A stretch of 64,000 bases of DNA from Alistipes sp. GTDB taxonomy: Bacteria; Bacteroidota; Bacteroidia; Bacteroidales; Rikenellaceae. The DNA is taken from positions 1 through 64,000 of the forward strand of contig JAGBAX010000023.1 in assembly GCA_017938765.1 (NCBI GenBank). Reading direction: 5' to 3'. Of this stretch, positions 5,672 to 11,025 are shown in pieces; positions within the stretch are counted from its first letter, which is position 1, and the number at the start of each line of letters is the position of its first letter. A model generated the notes under the pieces. That model had not been told where the DNA came from and did not search any database. It saw only the letters and a program-made list of their open reading frames with translations. Both the position numbers and the translations under genes were made by a program.

Positions 5672-6067
5672 CTACGAAACCCTTATATATGCTCCATATT
5701 TGCGAAAAGTTTGTATTCTAGACACCTGACAATTTATCTCTCTGCAAACTTGCTTTGCCACAGAATATGAATATGATATCGGTAGCTCAACTTTGAACAA
5801 CCCATTGATTACTCCCCACTTATTACCCTTGCGTACGCATATATTGTCGTCGTATGATGTAAACTCTCTATCATACTGGTCAAAAATAGGCACACACTCT
5901 ATTTTATACGTTTCCCAGTTGACAAAACCAATCTTATTCCCTACACGCACAGGCTGTATGGGAAACATTCTAAGTTTTATGTCAGGATGTATTTTCTTCA
6001 ATCGTTTAAGGTCGCTTATAAGCTCAGCTAAACTCTCATACGATAATATCTCCTCCGTCTTTACCAT
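5672..6067 (-). CDS. WG-repeat-like small protein
   Basis: A 131-residue cytoplasmic protein without signal peptide. It contains two stretches resembling WG repeats, VGNKIGFVNWETYKIECVP and KGNKWGVINGLFKVELPISY: a Lys/Asn-K-x-G-(F/V)-(V/I)-N core followed by a hydrophobic strand. The N-terminus (EEILSYESLAELISDLKRLK) is helical. WG repeats are probable protein-binding modules with no single function. It is divergent from the WYL regulator and separated from it by about 137 bases that hold the WYL promoter. Whether it belongs to the neighbouring retron locus is unclear. Confidence 0.55.
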   Translation of the reverse strand: MVKTEEILSYESLAELISDLKRLKKIHPDIKLRMFPIQPVRVGNKIGFVNWETYKIECVPIFDQYDREFTSYDDNICVRKGNKWGVINGLFKVELPISYSYSVAKQVCREINCQVSRIQTFRKYGAYIRVS

Positions 6068-6136: not shown

Positions 6137-6144
6137 TACCTTTG
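6137..6144 (+). promoter_or_regulatory. -7 promoter box of the WYL regulator gene
   Basis: TACCTTTG matches the Bacteroidetes TAnnTTTG box and lies about 60 bases before the WYL start codon. The shared 37-bp element begins three bases after it, so a protein bound there would cover the transcription start. Confidence 0.55.
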
Positions 6145-6146
6145 TT

Positions 6147-6183
6147 GCGAACATAGAGTGCGCAAAGAGTATTTTTCTTTGCA
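6147..6183 (+). promoter_or_regulatory. Putative operator, copy 1 (upstream of WYL gene)
   Basis: This 37-bp stretch matches 7273-7309 at 30 of 37 positions by eye, including an unbroken GAACATAGA, a TGCGCAAAG block and the terminal CTTTGCA. One copy precedes the WYL gene and the other precedes the retron RNA. A repeated element placed at two promoters, one of them that of a DNA-binding protein, is the expected arrangement for an autoregulating repressor or activator. The binding itself is inference. Confidence 0.6.
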
Positions 6184-6204
6184 GTCATAAAAATAGCGGA
6201 TAGT

Positions 6205-7227
6205 ATGGTAAAGAAGAATGCAATAATGAGATACAAAATATTGGACTCACTCTTATCTAACAGAAATCACTATTACACTATTACAGACCTTGTTGATAAG
6301 GTTAATGAAGCGCTGGAGTTAGATGGCATGGAGCCGGTGAGTCGTCGTTGCATAGAGAAAGATCTCAATGCTTTGGAGTGTGCACCTTACGATGCAGACA
6401 TAACTCGTGATTGGAAGAATGGTCGCAAGTATATAAGGTATGGAGAGGCTGGTTTTTCAATTTTCACAAAGAAACTGTCGGATGATGAGGAGAATTTGCT
6501 ATCCGAAGTACTGAATACTTTGGGGCAGTTCAGCGGACTTAATAACTTTGAGTGGCTTGAGTGTTTAAAGAGTCGCCTTGATATCAAGGAACACCGCCAA
6601 ATTATACAGTTTGACAGTAATCCCTATCTTCAGAATAGTACCTTGTTGGGTGGTCTTTTTACTGCGATATCCAACGAACAGGTGTTGAATCTAAAATACC
6701 ACACCTTCTCAAATCCGCAGATTAGAGAGGTGGTTGTCCATCCATATCTGTTGAAACAGTACAACAAAAGATGGTTTTTGTTGTGTGGCGCAGAAGATGA
6801 GACTATACTTACCTTTGCAATAGACCGTATTGATGATTTTGAGCTTTTACCACATATTAAGTATATCTACCCTACGGATGAGCTAGGGGACCGATTTGAC
6901 GATATTGTGGGTGTGACTTTGTATAACAACAAACCCATTGAAGATATCCTTTTGTGGGTGTCAGTGGCCGAATACCCGTATATTACCACAAAACCTTTGC
7001 ATGGTTCACAGAAAGAGGTTAAAAATGAGCAACTTATTGAACTACGGGAAAAATATGCTACGTTTGGCGACGGTCATTTTATTAGACTGAAGTGCGTGTT
7101 AAATGTTGAACTTGAGCAGCTGCTTATGTCACATATGGACCAGGTTGTAGTACTTGAGCCAGAGGTGTTAAGGGAGAAGATTGTGCAAAAAGTGGCAAGT
7201 CTACAAAAATTATATGGACTTAAATAG
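6205..7227 (+). CDS. WYL-domain transcriptional regulator, probably controlling the retron
   Basis: A 340-residue WYL-family regulator. The N-terminal winged helix-turn-helix occupies about residues 8-75 (ILDSLLSNRNHYYTITDLVD, SRRCIEKDLNALE). A linker leads to the WYL domain (about 150-235), where the ligand-sensing strand reads QYNKRWFLLCG in place of the literal WYL triplet, and FAIDRIDDFEL follows as usual. The C-terminal part fits a WCX domain. WYL proteins bind nucleotides or nucleic acids and often control defence genes such as BREX and CBASS. Here the gene directly precedes a retron and shares a 37-bp upstream element with it, so it most likely regulates itself and the retron transcript. 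A TACCTTTG box at 6137 drives it. Confidence 0.9.
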   Translation: MVKKNAIMRYKILDSLLSNRNHYYTITDLVDKVNEALELDGMEPVSRRCIEKDLNALECAPYDADITRDWKNGRKYIRYGEAGFSIFTKKLSDDEENLLSEVLNTLGQFSGLNNFEWLECLKSRLDIKEHRQIIQFDSNPYLQNSTLLGGLFTAISNEQVLNLKYHTFSNPQIREVVVHPYLLKQYNKRWFLLCGAEDETILTFAIDRIDDFELLPHIKYIYPTDELGDRFDDIVGVTLYNNKPIEDILLWVSVAEYPYITTKPLHGSQKEVKNEQLIELREKYATFGDGHFIRLKCVLNVELEQLLMSHMDQVVVLEPEVLREKIVQKVASLQKLYGLK

Positions 7228-7272
7228 TGCAAAATAAATTTTGTATTAACTTTGCAGAGAGAATAGTTACCT

Positions 7273-7309
7273 GAGAACATAGACTGCGCAAAGTCTATAT
7301 ACCTTTGCA
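7273..7309 (+). promoter_or_regulatory. Putative operator, copy 2 (upstream of retron RNA)
   Basis: This is the second copy of the element at 6147-6183. It contains the inverted repeat ATAGACT-gcgcaa-AGTCTAT (7279-7298), which is complete here and degenerate in copy 1. It occupies the -33 to -7 region of the retron RNA promoter, so a bound regulator would compete with polymerase or position it. Confidence 0.6.
7300..7307 (+). promoter_or_regulatory. -7 promoter box of the retron transcript
   Basis: TACCTTTG matches TAnnTTTG and lies about 17 bases before the first retron inverted repeat, giving a predicted RNA start near 7313. A second box (TAACTTTG near 7248) lies upstream and could add a longer transcript. 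The operator copy covers the region where a -33 element would be. Confidence 0.6.
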
Positions 7310-7312
7310 CCA

Positions 7313-7572
7313 GCAAAACAAACAAAAGCGTTCTTTGAGTATCATATTGAGATGACATTTTGATTGAGCCTCTCGTATTGTTGAGGCAAGCCGGAGGAGG
7401 AAACTCCAAAGGCAAAAGGGATATCTGTTATAAGGTGAGAGTATTACAAAATGTAATATGTAGTGTCTTGTATCTTATTCTAGTGATATTTACTTTTTCT
7501 TTTGATTTTGCAAATCAAATTCATAGACAAGTATAGAAAAGAAATCTTAATAAATACTCAAGAACGCTTTTT
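7313..7572 (+). ncRNA. Retron msr-msd non-coding RNA
   Basis: The 354-base gap between the WYL gene and the reverse transcriptase holds a retron-type RNA. Its ends carry the a1/a2 repeats: AAAAGCGTTCTTTGAGTAT (7324-7342) and ATACTCAAGAACGCTTTT (7554-7571), complementary over 18 pairs with one bulged base. After a1 come two msr-like hairpins: GCCTC/GAGGC (7368-7387) and GGAG/CTCC closed by GCC/GGC (7390-7413). A candidate branching G is in the AGC at 7367-7369. An msd-like imperfect rod follows: ATATC/GATAT (7421/7485), ATAAG/CTTAT (7430/7474), and an apical TATTACA/TGTAATA stem. Another perfect hairpin, TTTGATTT/AAATCAAA, is at 7501-7519. The a1/a2 pairing and position are seen directly; the msr/msd border and branch point are inferred. 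Confidence 0.8.
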
Positions 7573-7581
7573 ATATAAATT

Positions 7582-9102
7582 ATGGAAAGATCAGAAATAC
7601 ATTATCAAGCATCGGGTGTAAAAACAACATTAGACCTCGCTCAGCTTTTGAGCGAGATTAAGGAGGATGCGCTTGGTATAATAAAAGCACGAGCTTTCCA
7701 AGAGAAGCAGATTACCTATTATTGCAATCCGAAACGAACAGACCGCAAACGATATATTAACTTCACAATTCCTAAAAAGAGTGGTGGAGAGCGTACTATT
7801 TCTGCTCCAGTACGCGGTCTCAAATCAATATTATTCTCGCTAAATACTCTGCTACAAGCCTTATATGAGCCATCAAAGTATGCAATGGGGTTTACTCAAG
7901 GTCGTTCAGTCGTTGATAACGCTAAAATACATATAGGACAACGCTATATATATAATATAGACCTAAAAGATTTCTTTCCCAGTATTGACAAATCTCGTGT
8001 TTGGAAACGACTAACACTGCCACCATTCAATTTCAATAGTGACATTGCCCATACAATTGCCGGTTTGTGTACTATGCGTATTGTTGAAGATGGTAAAGAG
8101 CGATTTGTTCTACCGCAGGGCGCTCCGACATCTCCGATTCTCACTAATGCTATTTGTGACACTTTGGACCGTCGTTTAGGTGCTGTGGCAAAACGATTTG
8201 GTCTACGATATAGCCGTTATGCTGATGATATTACATTCAGTAGCATGCACTATGTATATGGCAAGGATAGTGAATTCATCAAGGAGTTGCATCGTGTTAT
8301 CAAGAGCCAAAACTTCACTATCAACGAGAGCAAAACCCGTTTACAGTCTCTTGGTTATCGCCAAGAAGTCACAGGTGTGATTATTTCTGACAAAATCAAT
8401 GTAGCAAAAAGATATACACGCGAGATTAAAACTTTGTTGCATATATGGGACAGATATGGATATATGGCTGCTTGCGAAAGTTATACCAAGTCCCATCATG
8501 TCAAAAATGATAACTTTAAACGAGTGGGTTATCCAAAGTTGGAGTCGGTGATTGCTGGCAAGTTGCAGTATATGAAGATGGTCAAGGGCGCTGAGGATGC
8601 GGTATATCAGACCCTGCAAACAAAATTCAGCACTCTTGTTAAAGGCATTAAGAAGATTGAGTTTACGATAGGTGGTAGAGATATCGCATACTTGCAGACA
8701 ATGACTCGTGAGCAGTTTAGAAAGGAAAAACTTGCAGATATCACAATTGATGCCACGAATAAGGTTGCCTATTATGAGTTTGGCGACCAGAAGCATAATA
8801 TTGTCATAAGCCGTTCTATTTCGGAAGACATTTTGTCGCAACTTGCAACCAGTCCAGCAAACGATGAGTGTTGGAATAAGTATCGCATTTCTCTATGTGA
8901 AAATAATAATGTGCAATTCTATCTGTTGCACAAGTGCTTTAAAGAGAGAAAATTCAGGGTAAGGACTGATATAAAATTGGAGGATATTGATAACATATTT
9001 ACTTATCTTGACTCCCCCAACAACAGAAATGAAAATAACAAAATAACCGATAAGAAATCTTCTAATATTTTTGAAAGGGTGATAGGATGGCTAAGGAGAT
9101 AA
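7582..9102 (+). CDS. Retron-type reverse transcriptase
   Basis: A 506-residue reverse transcriptase. The fingers/palm core spans about residues 50-270: KKSGGERTISAP, the retron-type N-A-x-x-H motif (DNAKIH, 112-117), NIDLKDFFPSI with the first catalytic Asp (Asp127), LPQGAPTSP (177-185), the catalytic YADD (213-216) and the VTG motif (263-265). NAxxH and VTG separate retron enzymes from other bacterial reverse transcriptases. It would copy the msd part of the RNA encoded just upstream into a branched RNA-DNA molecule. Residues about 355-480 form an extra C-terminal region I cannot assign. The gene overlaps the next one by 16 bases, indicating translational coupling. Confidence 0.95.
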   Translation: MERSEIHYQASGVKTTLDLAQLLSEIKEDALGIIKARAFQEKQITYYCNPKRTDRKRYINFTIPKKSGGERTISAPVRGLKSILFSLNTLLQALYEPSKYAMGFTQGRSVVDNAKIHIGQRYIYNIDLKDFFPSIDKSRVWKRLTLPPFNFNSDIAHTIAGLCTMRIVEDGKERFVLPQGAPTSPILTNAICDTLDRRLGAVAKRFGLRYSRYADDITFSSMHYVYGKDSEFIKELHRVIKSQNFTINESKTRLQSLGYRQEVTGVIISDKINVAKRYTREIKTLLHIWDRYGYMAACESYTKSHHVKNDNFKRVGYPKLESVIAGKLQYMKMVKGAEDAVYQTLQTKFSTLVKGIKKIEFTIGGRDIAYLQTMTREQFRKEKLADITIDATNKVAYYEFGDQKHNIVISRSISEDILSQLATSPANDECWNKYRISLCENNNVQFYLLHKCFKERKFRVRTDIKLEDIDNIFTYLDSPNNRNENNKITDKKSSNIFERVIGWLRR

Positions 9103-10028
9103 AGAAAAGCATATTTGCTCGCATCTGGCAAAAGTTGCTAAATACATTAGGGGTATCTAAAAAGAATGATAGCTCAAAAACCAAGCTTGCATCAAGTGAT
9201 GGCGGGCAAGATGGCGTTGATAAGTCATCTGTTACAACAGAAGAGACACCTGCACCTCGGTTGTCAAACGTAGAACAAACCACATCGGAGATTTTAGAAA
9301 GAGTTAGGACAATTGAAGAATACCTTGCATTAGGCAGTGAGATTTCTAAAAAAGTCAAACTTATTGACTATTCATTTGTCAAGAACAAAGAGGTTAGGTC
9401 TGTGCTAGAATCTGACTTAATAGAAATGTGGCGATGTCAATTAGGTGTAAGGGGACATAAGAAAGAATTTAATCAATTTTGCTTATATATTCAAATGCAA
9501 ATAGAGAAGTTATTGCGTTACTATTACGACCAACGATTTGGTGGCGATGAATCTCTTATTATTGACCATCTTAACAAAATAAACAAACCGACATATCATT
9601 ATTCGAGCATTAACTACCAGTGGGTATTGTATGCATTTGGAAATGAATTTTCCAAGACATATGGTATAAGTACGGATATATTAGACGCTGTGCGCATGCT
9701 GCGAAATAGCGTTATACACAATAGCGGCATGTCAGAATTGTCTAGAGACTTTGTAACCGCTGTACTTGATAAGGCAAAGCTGTCTAGTGTAGCCTTACAT
9801 GAGTTCTTAGGCCACAATGTGTCTATTAATCCAAAAGCAAAATTTAATATAAGTTCTGTTATAGATGGTAATAGCAAATTTAGTGGTTATAAGAGTGTAG
9901 ATATCAGTAAGTTTAATAGATGTGTTAAGTTGAAGATATTAAAAGAGGATAGACCTTTTGATAAGATTATAGATGAACTCATAAAATGGTGCAACGCAAT
10001 ACAATCTGAATTAAAAAATGTCTACTAA
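9087..10028 (+). CDS. HEPN-like protein, candidate retron effector
   Basis: A 313-residue cytoplasmic protein. An N-terminal amphipathic helix (KKSIFARIWQKLLNTLG) is joined by a low-complexity Ser/Asp/Thr linker (about residues 25-60) to a helical domain. Within that, MLRNSVIHNSG contains RN-x3-H (Arg206 to His211), the signature of HEPN ribonucleases, preceded by a helix rich in aromatic and charged residues (YIQMQIEKLLRYYYDQRF) that fits the first HEPN helix. HEPN enzymes cleave RNA and serve as toxins in abortive defence. The start lies inside the reverse transcriptase gene (16-base overlap) and its end overlaps the next gene by 11 bases. The RNase role is inferred from one motif and the context; the rest of the protein is unrecognised. 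Confidence 0.65.
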   Translation: MAKEIKKSIFARIWQKLLNTLGVSKKNDSSKTKLASSDGGQDGVDKSSVTTEETPAPRLSNVEQTTSEILERVRTIEEYLALGSEISKKVKLIDYSFVKNKEVRSVLESDLIEMWRCQLGVRGHKKEFNQFCLYIQMQIEKLLRYYYDQRFGGDESLIIDHLNKINKPTYHYSSINYQWVLYAFGNEFSKTYGISTDILDAVRMLRNSVIHNSGMSELSRDFVTAVLDKAKLSSVALHEFLGHNVSINPKAKFNISSVIDGNSKFSGYKSVDISKFNRCVKLKILKEDRPFDKIIDELIKWCNAIQSELKNVY

Positions 10029-10308
10029 TATTTTTGAAAACGCAAAGATATACCCATCTTCTTGGATGCAGGGATTTACACGGCCTTTTAATGATAGCGA
10101 GGTACAAATGGTTAAATCTTGCAAAGTGGTTGCAGGATACTACTCGTTATTGTTGGAGTGCAAGTTGTGCAATGGCAAGAGGTACTCTATTCCAATAACA
10201 AAGGATTCCGATGCATATATCGGCTTTGTTCCAGACATAACTAAAGCTAAACTTGTTGAATTTGAGCGAGGCGAACAAAGATGTATTAAGGTCAGAATAA
10301 AACTCTAA
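10018..10308 (+). CDS. Small third protein of the retron operon
   Basis: A 96-residue protein with no recognised domain. It is rich in beta-prone segments (VAGYYSLLLECKLCNGKRYSI) and contains two cysteines close together (ECKLC), possibly a metal or structural site. It has no signal peptide or membrane helix. Its start overlaps the HEPN-like gene by 11 bases, and a 12-bp terminator follows its stop codon immediately, so it is the last gene of the retron operon. It could be an antitoxin, an adaptor between the reverse transcriptase complex and the effector, or part of the effector. Confidence 0.6.
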   Translation: MSTNIFENAKIYPSSWMQGFTRPFNDSEVQMVKSCKVVAGYYSLLLECKLCNGKRYSIPITKDSDAYIGFVPDITKAKLVEFERGEQRCIKVRIKL

Positions 10309-10333
10309 AGAAGTAAGAGATTCTTACTTCTTT
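10307..10333. terminator. Bidirectional terminator after the retron operon
   Basis: AAAGAAGTAAGA and TCTTACTTCTTT form a perfect 12-bp stem with a 3-base loop, followed by further T's. It starts inside the stop codon of the 96-residue gene and also ends the convergent repeat-protein gene. Confidence 0.75.
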
Positions 10334-11025
10334 TTTCTTTGATAGAGATTAATAAGCTCGTACAAACTCATTGTTTCTCCATTTGCCATATGGCAAGTGG
10401 GGTTTACCGAATGGTTGCCATCAGGGTTATGAAAAGAATTTACCTCAACAATCTCTTGAGGGATATTTAGTATCTCCTTTAACTGCTTACAATCATAGAA
10501 GGCATTTGTGCCAATCTTTAGCAACGATTTGGGCATTACAATACGCTCCACTGTTGTATTTTTAAATGCACAATTGCCTATTTGTCTTACACCATTTGGT
10601 ACTTTGTACTCGCCACTTCTTGCATTAGGGTATGCAACAAGTTCTTTTTTACTCTTGCTGAACAAAACGCCATCAATGTCGCAATAGTTTTCATTCTCTG
10701 GATCAACAACAATCCTCTGGAGGTTTGTGCACTTCCAGAAACACCACTTAATATGCCTTATACTTTTGGGAATATAAATCTCCACAATGTCTCTCACAAA
10801 ATCAAATGCCCCACGATTTATTGCGATTACTTTAAGTTTAGTTTTGTTGTTGGCAAGAATAAACTCTGGTATCTCAATCACTTCAGCACCTGCAATATCG
10901 TGTGCTGGTTGTTTGCTGTGGTATAAAACACACTTGGCAAATACACCACAAGTGTACACAATAGTCGCTTCACTCGCACTCTCATTCTCTTGAAAAACTA
11001 AACCGTTATACTTCATATGCACCAT
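10324..11025 (-). CDS. BspA-type leucine-rich repeat protein
   Basis: A 233-residue protein with several BspA/LRR_5 repeats: IEIPEFILANN, GAFDFVRDIVEIYIPKSI, CFWKCTNLQRIVVDPEN, VPNGVRQIGNCAFKNTTVER and IVMPKSLLKIGTNAFYDC. Each has the family pattern of an I-x-I-P-x-S/x-V strand followed by I-G-x-x-A-F-x-x-C. There is no signal peptide, unlike most exported BspA-like proteins, so it may act in the cytoplasm. A clear repeat count is difficult because the first and last units are degenerate. It is convergent with the retron operon and shares its terminator; there is no sign that it belongs to that system. Confidence 0.8.
   Translation of the reverse strand: MVHMKYNGLVFQENESASEATIVYTCGVFAKCVLYHSKQPAHDIAGAEVIEIPEFILANNKTKLKVIAINRGAFDFVRDIVEIYIPKSIRHIKWCFWKCTNLQRIVVDPENENYCDIDGVLFSKSKKELVAYPNARSGEYKVPNGVRQIGNCAFKNTTVERIVMPKSLLKIGTNAFYDCKQLKEILNIPQEIVEVNSFHNPDGNHSVNPTCHMANGETMSLYELINLYQRKKK

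Follow-up and report, generated by a model that had tools for sequence, protein, structure and literature searches.

In the present work, we examine a locus on a 64,000-nucleotide (nt) stretch of DNA from an Alistipes sp. (contig JAGBAX010000023.1, positions 1 to 64,000; the window in what follows), whose source genome is 2.1 Mb long and 87% complete. We will argue that the locus is probably a complete retron defence system, consisting of a WYL regulator, a non-coding RNA (ncRNA), a reverse transcriptase (RT), a HEPN-like effector and an accessory open reading frame (ORF) of 96 amino acids (aa). Comparison with related loci shows a retron-type RT, a conserved and covarying ncRNA directly 5′ of it, a HEPN-like family directly 3′ of it, and a shared upstream element. 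An earlier note made from the letters alone, here called the sequence-only reading, had listed the five components in order on one strand, and the coordinates (6205-10308, Table 1) confirm this: the + strand carries the WYL gene, a structured non-coding stretch, the RT gene, ORF3 and the 96-aa ORF4. The last three frames overlap, as had also been stated, by 16 nt between RT and ORF3 and by 11 nt between ORF3 and ORF4.

The NAxxH (N113, A114, H117), YADD (213-216) and VTG (263-265) motifs of the RT, which the sequence-only reading had pointed out, are present and invariant in six aligned RTs. NAxxH (region X) and VTG (region Y) are assigned to retron RTs, and in a search of the PDB the best matches are retron RTs, with the Ec67 retron RT at the top (1.1e-37). 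The highest-scoring PADLOC profiles are RT-Protease_XI (1.4e-99) and RT-TIR_XII (1.9e-94), over residues 39-360 only. Given these strong matches, the locus could be just a new member of an already described retron type, or of a group that the Mestre 2020 survey leaves unnamed, but we regard this as improbable. In types XI and XII a protease or TIR part is fused to the RT, whereas here the match ends before that part, neither part is found in the RT by Pfam or NCBIfam, and the HEPN-like gene is separate. The NCBIfam retron cut-offs are not reached, the TIR-retron model giving 275 bits, where 600 are required, and covering only residues 40-351. Furthermore, L207 and L208, which have the best XI/XII scores among the RTs sampled, branch outside the 92 lineage members in a quick tree of 108 RTs (111 rows, three of which were dropped as too gappy; SH-aLRT support only, midpoint root, several long branches), and the HEPN-like family fits no PADLOC retron-effector model. 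A partial outside sequence, L218, falls inside the lineage in the same tree. Membership in type XI or XII was rejected on the end of the RT match near residue 360, ahead of the fused domain, and on the tree, in which the RT lineage appears separate from the sampled RT-TIR- and RT-protease-like RTs. Type IX was rejected as well: the RT_IX profile is weak (2.5e-47, 159.5 bits, the best profile having 332.4, and last among the best 25 of 53 families), and the HEPN motif of ORF3 is canonical.

The nearest relatives of the RT are found in three Rikenellaceae metagenome-assembled genomes (L036, L037 and L038), and the lineage is mostly from Bacteroidota. The distribution is patchy, with RT relatives in 18 of 393 genomes of the order (1e-40) and in 3 of 81 genomes of the genus (1e-30), the latter being the source genome and two with distant relatives (35-42% identity). 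Ten plasmid records match the RT at 1e-40, none of them covering more than 80% of it, and a genome scan with the single RT as query gave nothing useful. The C-terminal extension that the RT has in common with its nearest relatives has no Pfam match. By eye, its last helix, SNIFERVIGWLRR, is like the start of ORF3, KKSIFARIWQKLLNTLG (window 8647-9099 and 9087-9150, respectively).

Directly 5′ of the RT gene, positions 7300-7581 fold at −77.5 kcal/mol with z = −5.7, and none of 200 shuffles is as good. The ends of the ncRNA pair with a score of 45, compared to 23 for the best of five shuffles. The retron RNA of the sequence-only reading is thus above chance by both measures, and the arrangement typical of retron ncRNAs, an a1/a2 inverted repeat with hairpins before the RT, is found. 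A scan of Rfam gave no retron match, and one chance match far under its cut-off. In an unpicked set of 93 loci, 81 have an end stem that outscores each of five mononucleotide shuffles. For the alignment, 26 loci were chosen by eye for a clear a1 arm, of which 24 were aligned (L055 and L061 were omitted). All 24 fold with z from −4.3 to −9.0 (30 shuffles each), a rate that is biased because the loci were picked for the a1 arm. The RNAalifold consensus of these sequences has 15 pairs and −9.2 kcal/mol; it comprises the inner end stem, the first hairpin and a 2-bp stem, and the outer a1/a2 part is not included. In a covariation test whose structure was derived from the same alignment, which favours that structure, 89.7% of the cells are paired, compared to 74.2% when shuffled and 29-43% with the partner slid. 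The test further gives 70 cells changed on both sides (22.6 in shuffles) and a covariation score of 0.623 (shuffled mean 0.323), and for both of these quantities none of 500 shuffles is as high. A weaker statistic is the number of consensus pairs with changes on both sides, 11 of 15, where the shuffles give 8.7 and 39 of 500 are as high. The inner stem of the ncRNA covaries, then, across the 24 picked relatives. The motifs TTTGA, 3′ of a1, and GAAA, 5′ of a2, are common to all of them, and the G at 7362, inside TTTGA, would be our guess for the branching G. As a further guess, the msd would fall within about 7430-7540.

To see what accompanies such RTs, lineage loci were collected as the best 80 of 571 confirmed stretches, chosen by RT likeness. 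The window and L019-L117 make 100 loci, and dropping those with an RT score below 230 (L030 and L032-L035) leaves 95, which include the window itself and two duplicates, L020 (identical to L041) and L115 (identical to L028). A further 52 viral loci (L118-L169) belong to the ORF set and stand outside the locus counts. The HEPN-like family is present in 50 of the 95, a share that is biased upward, as three of the six RTs in the query (A1) are of the HEPN type (window, L019 and L020); a HisKin-conflict module is present in 35, neither in 10 and both in none. Among the ten loci lacking both modules, five stop within 511 nt 3′ of the RT. Homologues consistently without the HEPN-like gene, which the sequence-only reading had named as grounds for giving up its view, are thus not what we find.

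The position of the HEPN-like gene is well defined. An iterated ORF3 profile, in a search that covered RT loci only, collects 52 ORFs in the fetched loci, or 50 once the two duplicates are taken out. Of 48 cases that were measured, 47 have the start of the gene at −188 to +62 nt relative to the RT stop. The 48th is L058, where two RT genes stand in tandem (L058:6992-11476) and the HEPN-like gene is 3′ of the second one, and in L032 the HEPN-like part is fused to an RT. Altogether, the gene adjoins an RT or is fused to it in 49 distinct loci. In an independent profile search of the order, with a profile built from RT-linked members, at most six candidates scored per genome and the genomes being a sample, the family occurs in 6 of 393 genomes, each time beside or within an RT, and the six are identical with those that have the gene among the 18 RT-positive genomes. 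The linked effector gene expected of a retron is hence found, and we infer that the HEPN-like protein acts as the effector. Among the IMG/VR contigs, L116 and L117 have an RT with a HEPN-like gene directly 3′ of it. Phage records searched with ORF3 gave no match, and a viral scan with a single HEPN-like protein gave nothing useful.

These results also bear on the option that the genes are unrelated and stand beside a solitary retron RT by chance. ORF4 and the flanking genes indeed show no link, and the RT has relatives in very few genomes of the genus, as given above. However, with 49 distinct loci on record, no case among the 393 genomes in which the HEPN-like gene is apart from an RT, and an element shared by the regions before the WYL gene and before the ncRNA, a chance neighbourhood is very improbable indeed.

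Proteins of the HEPN superfamily are recognized by the motif R-x4-6-H, and ORF3 contains it as RNSVIH at residues 206-211, so that the His211 numbering of the sequence-only reading is right. The R206 and H211 columns are invariant in 42 aligned rows, short-motif members included, and the columns of R206, H211, E140 and M114 are invariant in alignments of 43 and 42. Among the 50 family ORFs, the motif reads RN-x3-H in 30, RN-x2-H in 17 and R-x4-H in one, and two have none of these (one is a fragment). The RN-x2-H form (L019, L042, L061, L082 and others) is one residue under the standard HEPN spacing and is kept within a subgroup. Pfam DUF4145, which is predicted to be a HEPN family (PMC10799925), is matched by 5 of 42 members (best 2.6e-5), HEPN_Apea by 2 of 42 (best 0.0045), and HEPN_Swt1 and Abi_C by single weak matches. 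With PADLOC, the 42 aligned members match no retron-effector model, the best match of any kind being at 0.0016, and the window ORF3 has a weak match (0.009), within the motif region, to a Csm6-like CARF model. The HEPN identity rests on the motif and weak profile matches, and ORF3 is therefore likely, not proven, to be a HEPN protein. The HEPN-like proteins of L041, L049, L059, L068 and L058 have about 55 extra C-terminal residues, which by eye resemble a small beta domain and are absent from the protein in the window.

Another scenario considered is a retron in which ORF3 has the HEPN fold and is not the RNase. It would then be a structural or msDNA-binding subunit (msDNA, multicopy single-stranded DNA), comparable to the winged-helix protein of type IX, with toxicity residing in the RT extension or ORF4. 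This option draws on the RN-x2-H members, which break the standard spacing, and on the unassigned extension of the RT. We find it unlikely, with the R and H columns aligned and invariant even in short-motif members, and with RN-x3-H kept in 30 of 50, the window included. Moreover, ORF4 is without homologue in other loci, and many HEPN-bearing RTs are shorter (ca 380-440 aa) and probably lack the extension.

As to ORF4 itself, its position makes it a putative coupled accessory. Of 61 genomes searched, the 60 besides its own gave no homologue, and neither did the fetched retron loci. The idea that ORF4 is a separate copy of the extra C-terminal stretch seen in some HEPN relatives is unsupported, as phmmer --max against the fetched ORFs gave no homologue. 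Of the 96-aa partner in the sequence-only reading there remains, accordingly, an ORF that is present and overlaps ORF3, while nothing ties the protein to retrons. It is probably on the same transcript, since a terminator-like hairpin lies directly 3′ of it (fold z −2.4; 2 of 200 shuffles are equally good). The region has six terminator-like sites, compared to a shuffle mean of 2.6.

The first gene of the locus contains a clear WYL domain (43.7 bits against the Pfam cut-off of 21.8), and WCX is just under its Pfam cut-off. The source genome has three WYL genes. When the two duplicates and five loci with less than 1.5 kb upstream are omitted, 88 loci are left, and 49 of them have a WYL relative no more than 1.3 kb upstream of the RT (24 on the same strand, 25 on the other). 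The regions before the WYL gene and before the ncRNA share the element AACATAGANTGCGCAAAG. With a pattern taken from these two copies and up to three mismatches, the 64 kb contain only 6150-6167 and 7276-7293, the shuffle mean being 0.20, and the whole genome contains the two exact copies and one place with three mismatches, with two for a reversed-pattern control. A TTTGC box follows just 3′ of each copy; the Bacteroidetes −7 consensus is TAnnTTTG. In the lineage loci, GAACATAGA with TTTGC 20-32 nt further occurs 15 times, twice each in L044, L050 and L055; the two copies of L050 precede the WYL gene and the ncRNA, respectively. A shared WYL/ncRNA upstream element exceeds the best of 20 shuffles in 17 of 67 WYL-bearing loci, where two of the 17 are one duplicate pair and some have overlapping divergent upstream regions. 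These data suggest that the element is an operator-like sequence repeat and a candidate WYL site. The gap between the WYL gene and the ncRNA is about 90 nt and contains the second copy, and the two are therefore probably separate transcription units. A sigma-70 promoter scan was uninformative (20 found, 16.4 expected).

CapW is a WYL-type regulator of defence loci, of the same kind as BrxR. BrxR, a WYL regulator by a defence operon, represses through one site ahead of its own gene and another ahead of brxA (PMC9122601); its operator sequence differs from the element found here. Most likely, the WYL protein acts as a repressor of its own promoter and of the ncRNA-RT-effector transcript, and is removed by a signal. 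Repression is preferred over activation because the element is just upstream of the −7-like box, and because BrxR represses from a comparable pair of sites. The proposal in the sequence-only reading that WYL raises expression under stress is accordingly the less likely one.

It is important to point out that a number of results weigh against a complete retron defence locus. As regards the RNA, the end stem is not above shuffles in 12 of the 93 unpicked loci. The linkage is less strict in a less biased sample, the HEPN-like gene being found in 6 of the 18 RT-positive genomes. For the effector, a Pfam search with the window ORF3 is empty up to E = 1, and a PDB search with the family profile gives no HEPN protein up to E = 10, the best matches being designed helical repeats. 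The weak HEPN-model matches of the members are mixed with unrelated families at similar E-values, and catalysis may not be general in the family, considering the 17 of 50 members with RN-x2-H and the two with neither motif. Finally, a WYL homologue within 1.3 kb is missing from 39 of the 88 loci, the shared element is not above the best of 20 shuffles in 50 of the 67 WYL-bearing loci, and in L040, L042 and L053 it lies right 3′ of the WYL gene, before another gene. Taking all of this into account, we still find the complete retron defence locus the probable explanation, and comparisons with homologues support the earlier proposals of a retron, of a HEPN-like partner and of a link to WYL.

The RT lineage is also associated with a second type of module. 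In L027, the RT is accompanied by a HisKin-conflict protein (PF22561, 9.5e-53), then a 210-aa protein without match, and then a 580-aa protein with an inactive receiver. The module is also found in L024, L063, L064, L077 and others, with next genes of about 210 and 580 aa; there, a profile started from L027 identified the kinase-like part, and the two genes after it were judged on length only. RT and kinase-like part form one fused protein in 15 loci. On a quick tree of 92 RTs with 34 weakly supported forks (the duplicates L020 and L115 are omitted, and so is L117, whose RT is cut), at least 14 switches between the HEPN-like and HisKin modules are needed, which is a rough count. A shared N-terminal docking part of the two effectors was considered and dismissed (hhalign probability 1.1%). 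A 580-aa gene 3′ of the close RT relative in L038 (L038:3336-5075) has no Pfam or PADLOC match at 0.01 and is possibly a third effector. We tentatively raise the idea, without being ready to favour it, of a Bacteroidota retron 'chassis', in which one RT/ncRNA lineage, often with WYL, would take either a HEPN RNase or a histidine-kinase-like/inactive-receiver relay as interchangeable modules. Effector exchange in retrons is already known from Retron-Sda1, where the usual effector is replaced by another defence module, an arrangement also present in Bacteroidota (PMC12548924). That system has a type III-A1-like RT with HipA and DUF3037, and differs from the present one in its RT lineage and in having no HEPN protein.

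The features of the locus are collected in Table 1. Next to it, on the − strand, are a small protein on the 5′ side (window 5672-6067), WG-repeat-like by eye and without Pfam match, and a BspA-type leucine-rich repeat protein (LRR_5) on the 3′ side (window 10324-11025). One relative, L199, keeps both flanking gene pairs with other genes and no retron between them, and a search for the empty site there did not find a clean junction.

Table 1. Features of the putative retron locus, in window positions.
Feature	Position	Strand	Basis or remark
Operator-like element, copy 1, AACATAGANTGCGCAAAG	6150..6167	+	37 nt before WYL start codon
−7-like box after element copy 1	6174-6181		Sequence
WYL-domain regulator, 340 aa	6205..7227	+	Pfam WYL 2.7e-11, PADLOC WYL 3.9e-20
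Operator-like element, copy 2, 5′ of ncRNA	7276..7293	+	Same sequence as copy 1
−7-like box, TACCTTTG	7300..7307	+	Sequence; element-then-TTTGC arrangement recurs in related loci
Predicted retron ncRNA (msr-msd), ends approximate	7320..7571	+	Fold z, covariation
a1 arm, end-to-end stem	7324..7353	+	End-pairing score
a2 arm, end-to-end stem	7544..7571	+	End-pairing score
Retron RT, 506 aa; NAxxH, YADD, VTG	7582..9102	+	Pfam RVT_1 1.5e-20
RT C-terminal extension, residues 356-506	8647..9099	+	Relatives L036, L037, weakly L038
Probable HEPN-like effector (ORF3), 313 aa	9087..10028	+	ORF family in RT loci, R206/H211 columns
RN-x3-H motif codons, R206 to H211	9702..9719	+	RNSVIH
96-aa ORF (ORF4)	10018..10308	+	11-nt overlap with ORF3
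Terminator-like hairpin, 12 bp	10307..10333	both	Terminator scan and fold

For the retron defence locus, the following mechanism can be envisaged. The RT would make msDNA from the ncRNA, and the RT-msDNA complex would bind and silence the HEPN-like protein. A phage product would then disturb the msDNA or the RT, and the freed HEPN dimer would cut RNA, perhaps tRNA, such that growth stops. Expression would be set by a signal that lifts the WYL repression. The closest parallel is type IX, retron-Kva2, for which a HEPN dimer held in a complex of RT, msDNA and winged helix (WH), and tRNA degradation when triggered, are reported (PMC13405049). Defence is lost with H64A or R122A, synthetic triggering gives smaller RNA fragments only with live HEPN, and the natural trigger partly depletes tRNA-sized RNA by itself. 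Both systems have an RT, an ncRNA and a HEPN protein in one operon, and the logic of a silenced RNase is likely the same.

The two differ, on the other hand, in several respects. The Kva2 operon is given in the order HEPN, WH, ncRNA, RT, with a winged-helix partner, compared to WYL-ncRNA-RT-HEPN here, and its 19-kDa HEPN protein is without RphiXXXH, using H64 and R122 instead, while RN-x3-H is kept in our case (PMC13405049). ORF3 and ORF4 match no winged-helix family in Pfam or NCBIfam, and the Kva2 RT matches the window RT at 9.3e-20, behind 11 other PDB chains. A retron with a HEPN RNase is no longer new in principle. The possibility of a new type, raised in the sequence-only reading, stands within the searchable scope, where the NCBIfam retron cut-offs are not reached, the aligned family members match no PADLOC retron-effector model, and type IX, the one published HEPN retron that turned up, differs: the HEPN-RT pairing found here fits no retron type that could be checked. 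In the accessible open literature, which does not cover the Mestre 2020 survey, we found neither this lineage, nor the canonical-motif HEPN-like family, the WYL element or the module exchange.

If the retron defence reading is true, the locus adds a class of retron effectors with an intact HEPN motif, and offers dozens of comparable loci for learning how msDNA locks a toxin, together with a clear candidate operator for WYL control of a retron. The recurrent exchange of HEPN-like for kinase-like modules within a single RT lineage would tell which RT-msDNA surfaces are general. Should the more tentative chassis idea also hold, the RT-msDNA sensor would serve as a general-purpose lock on modules that kill or signal in quite different ways.

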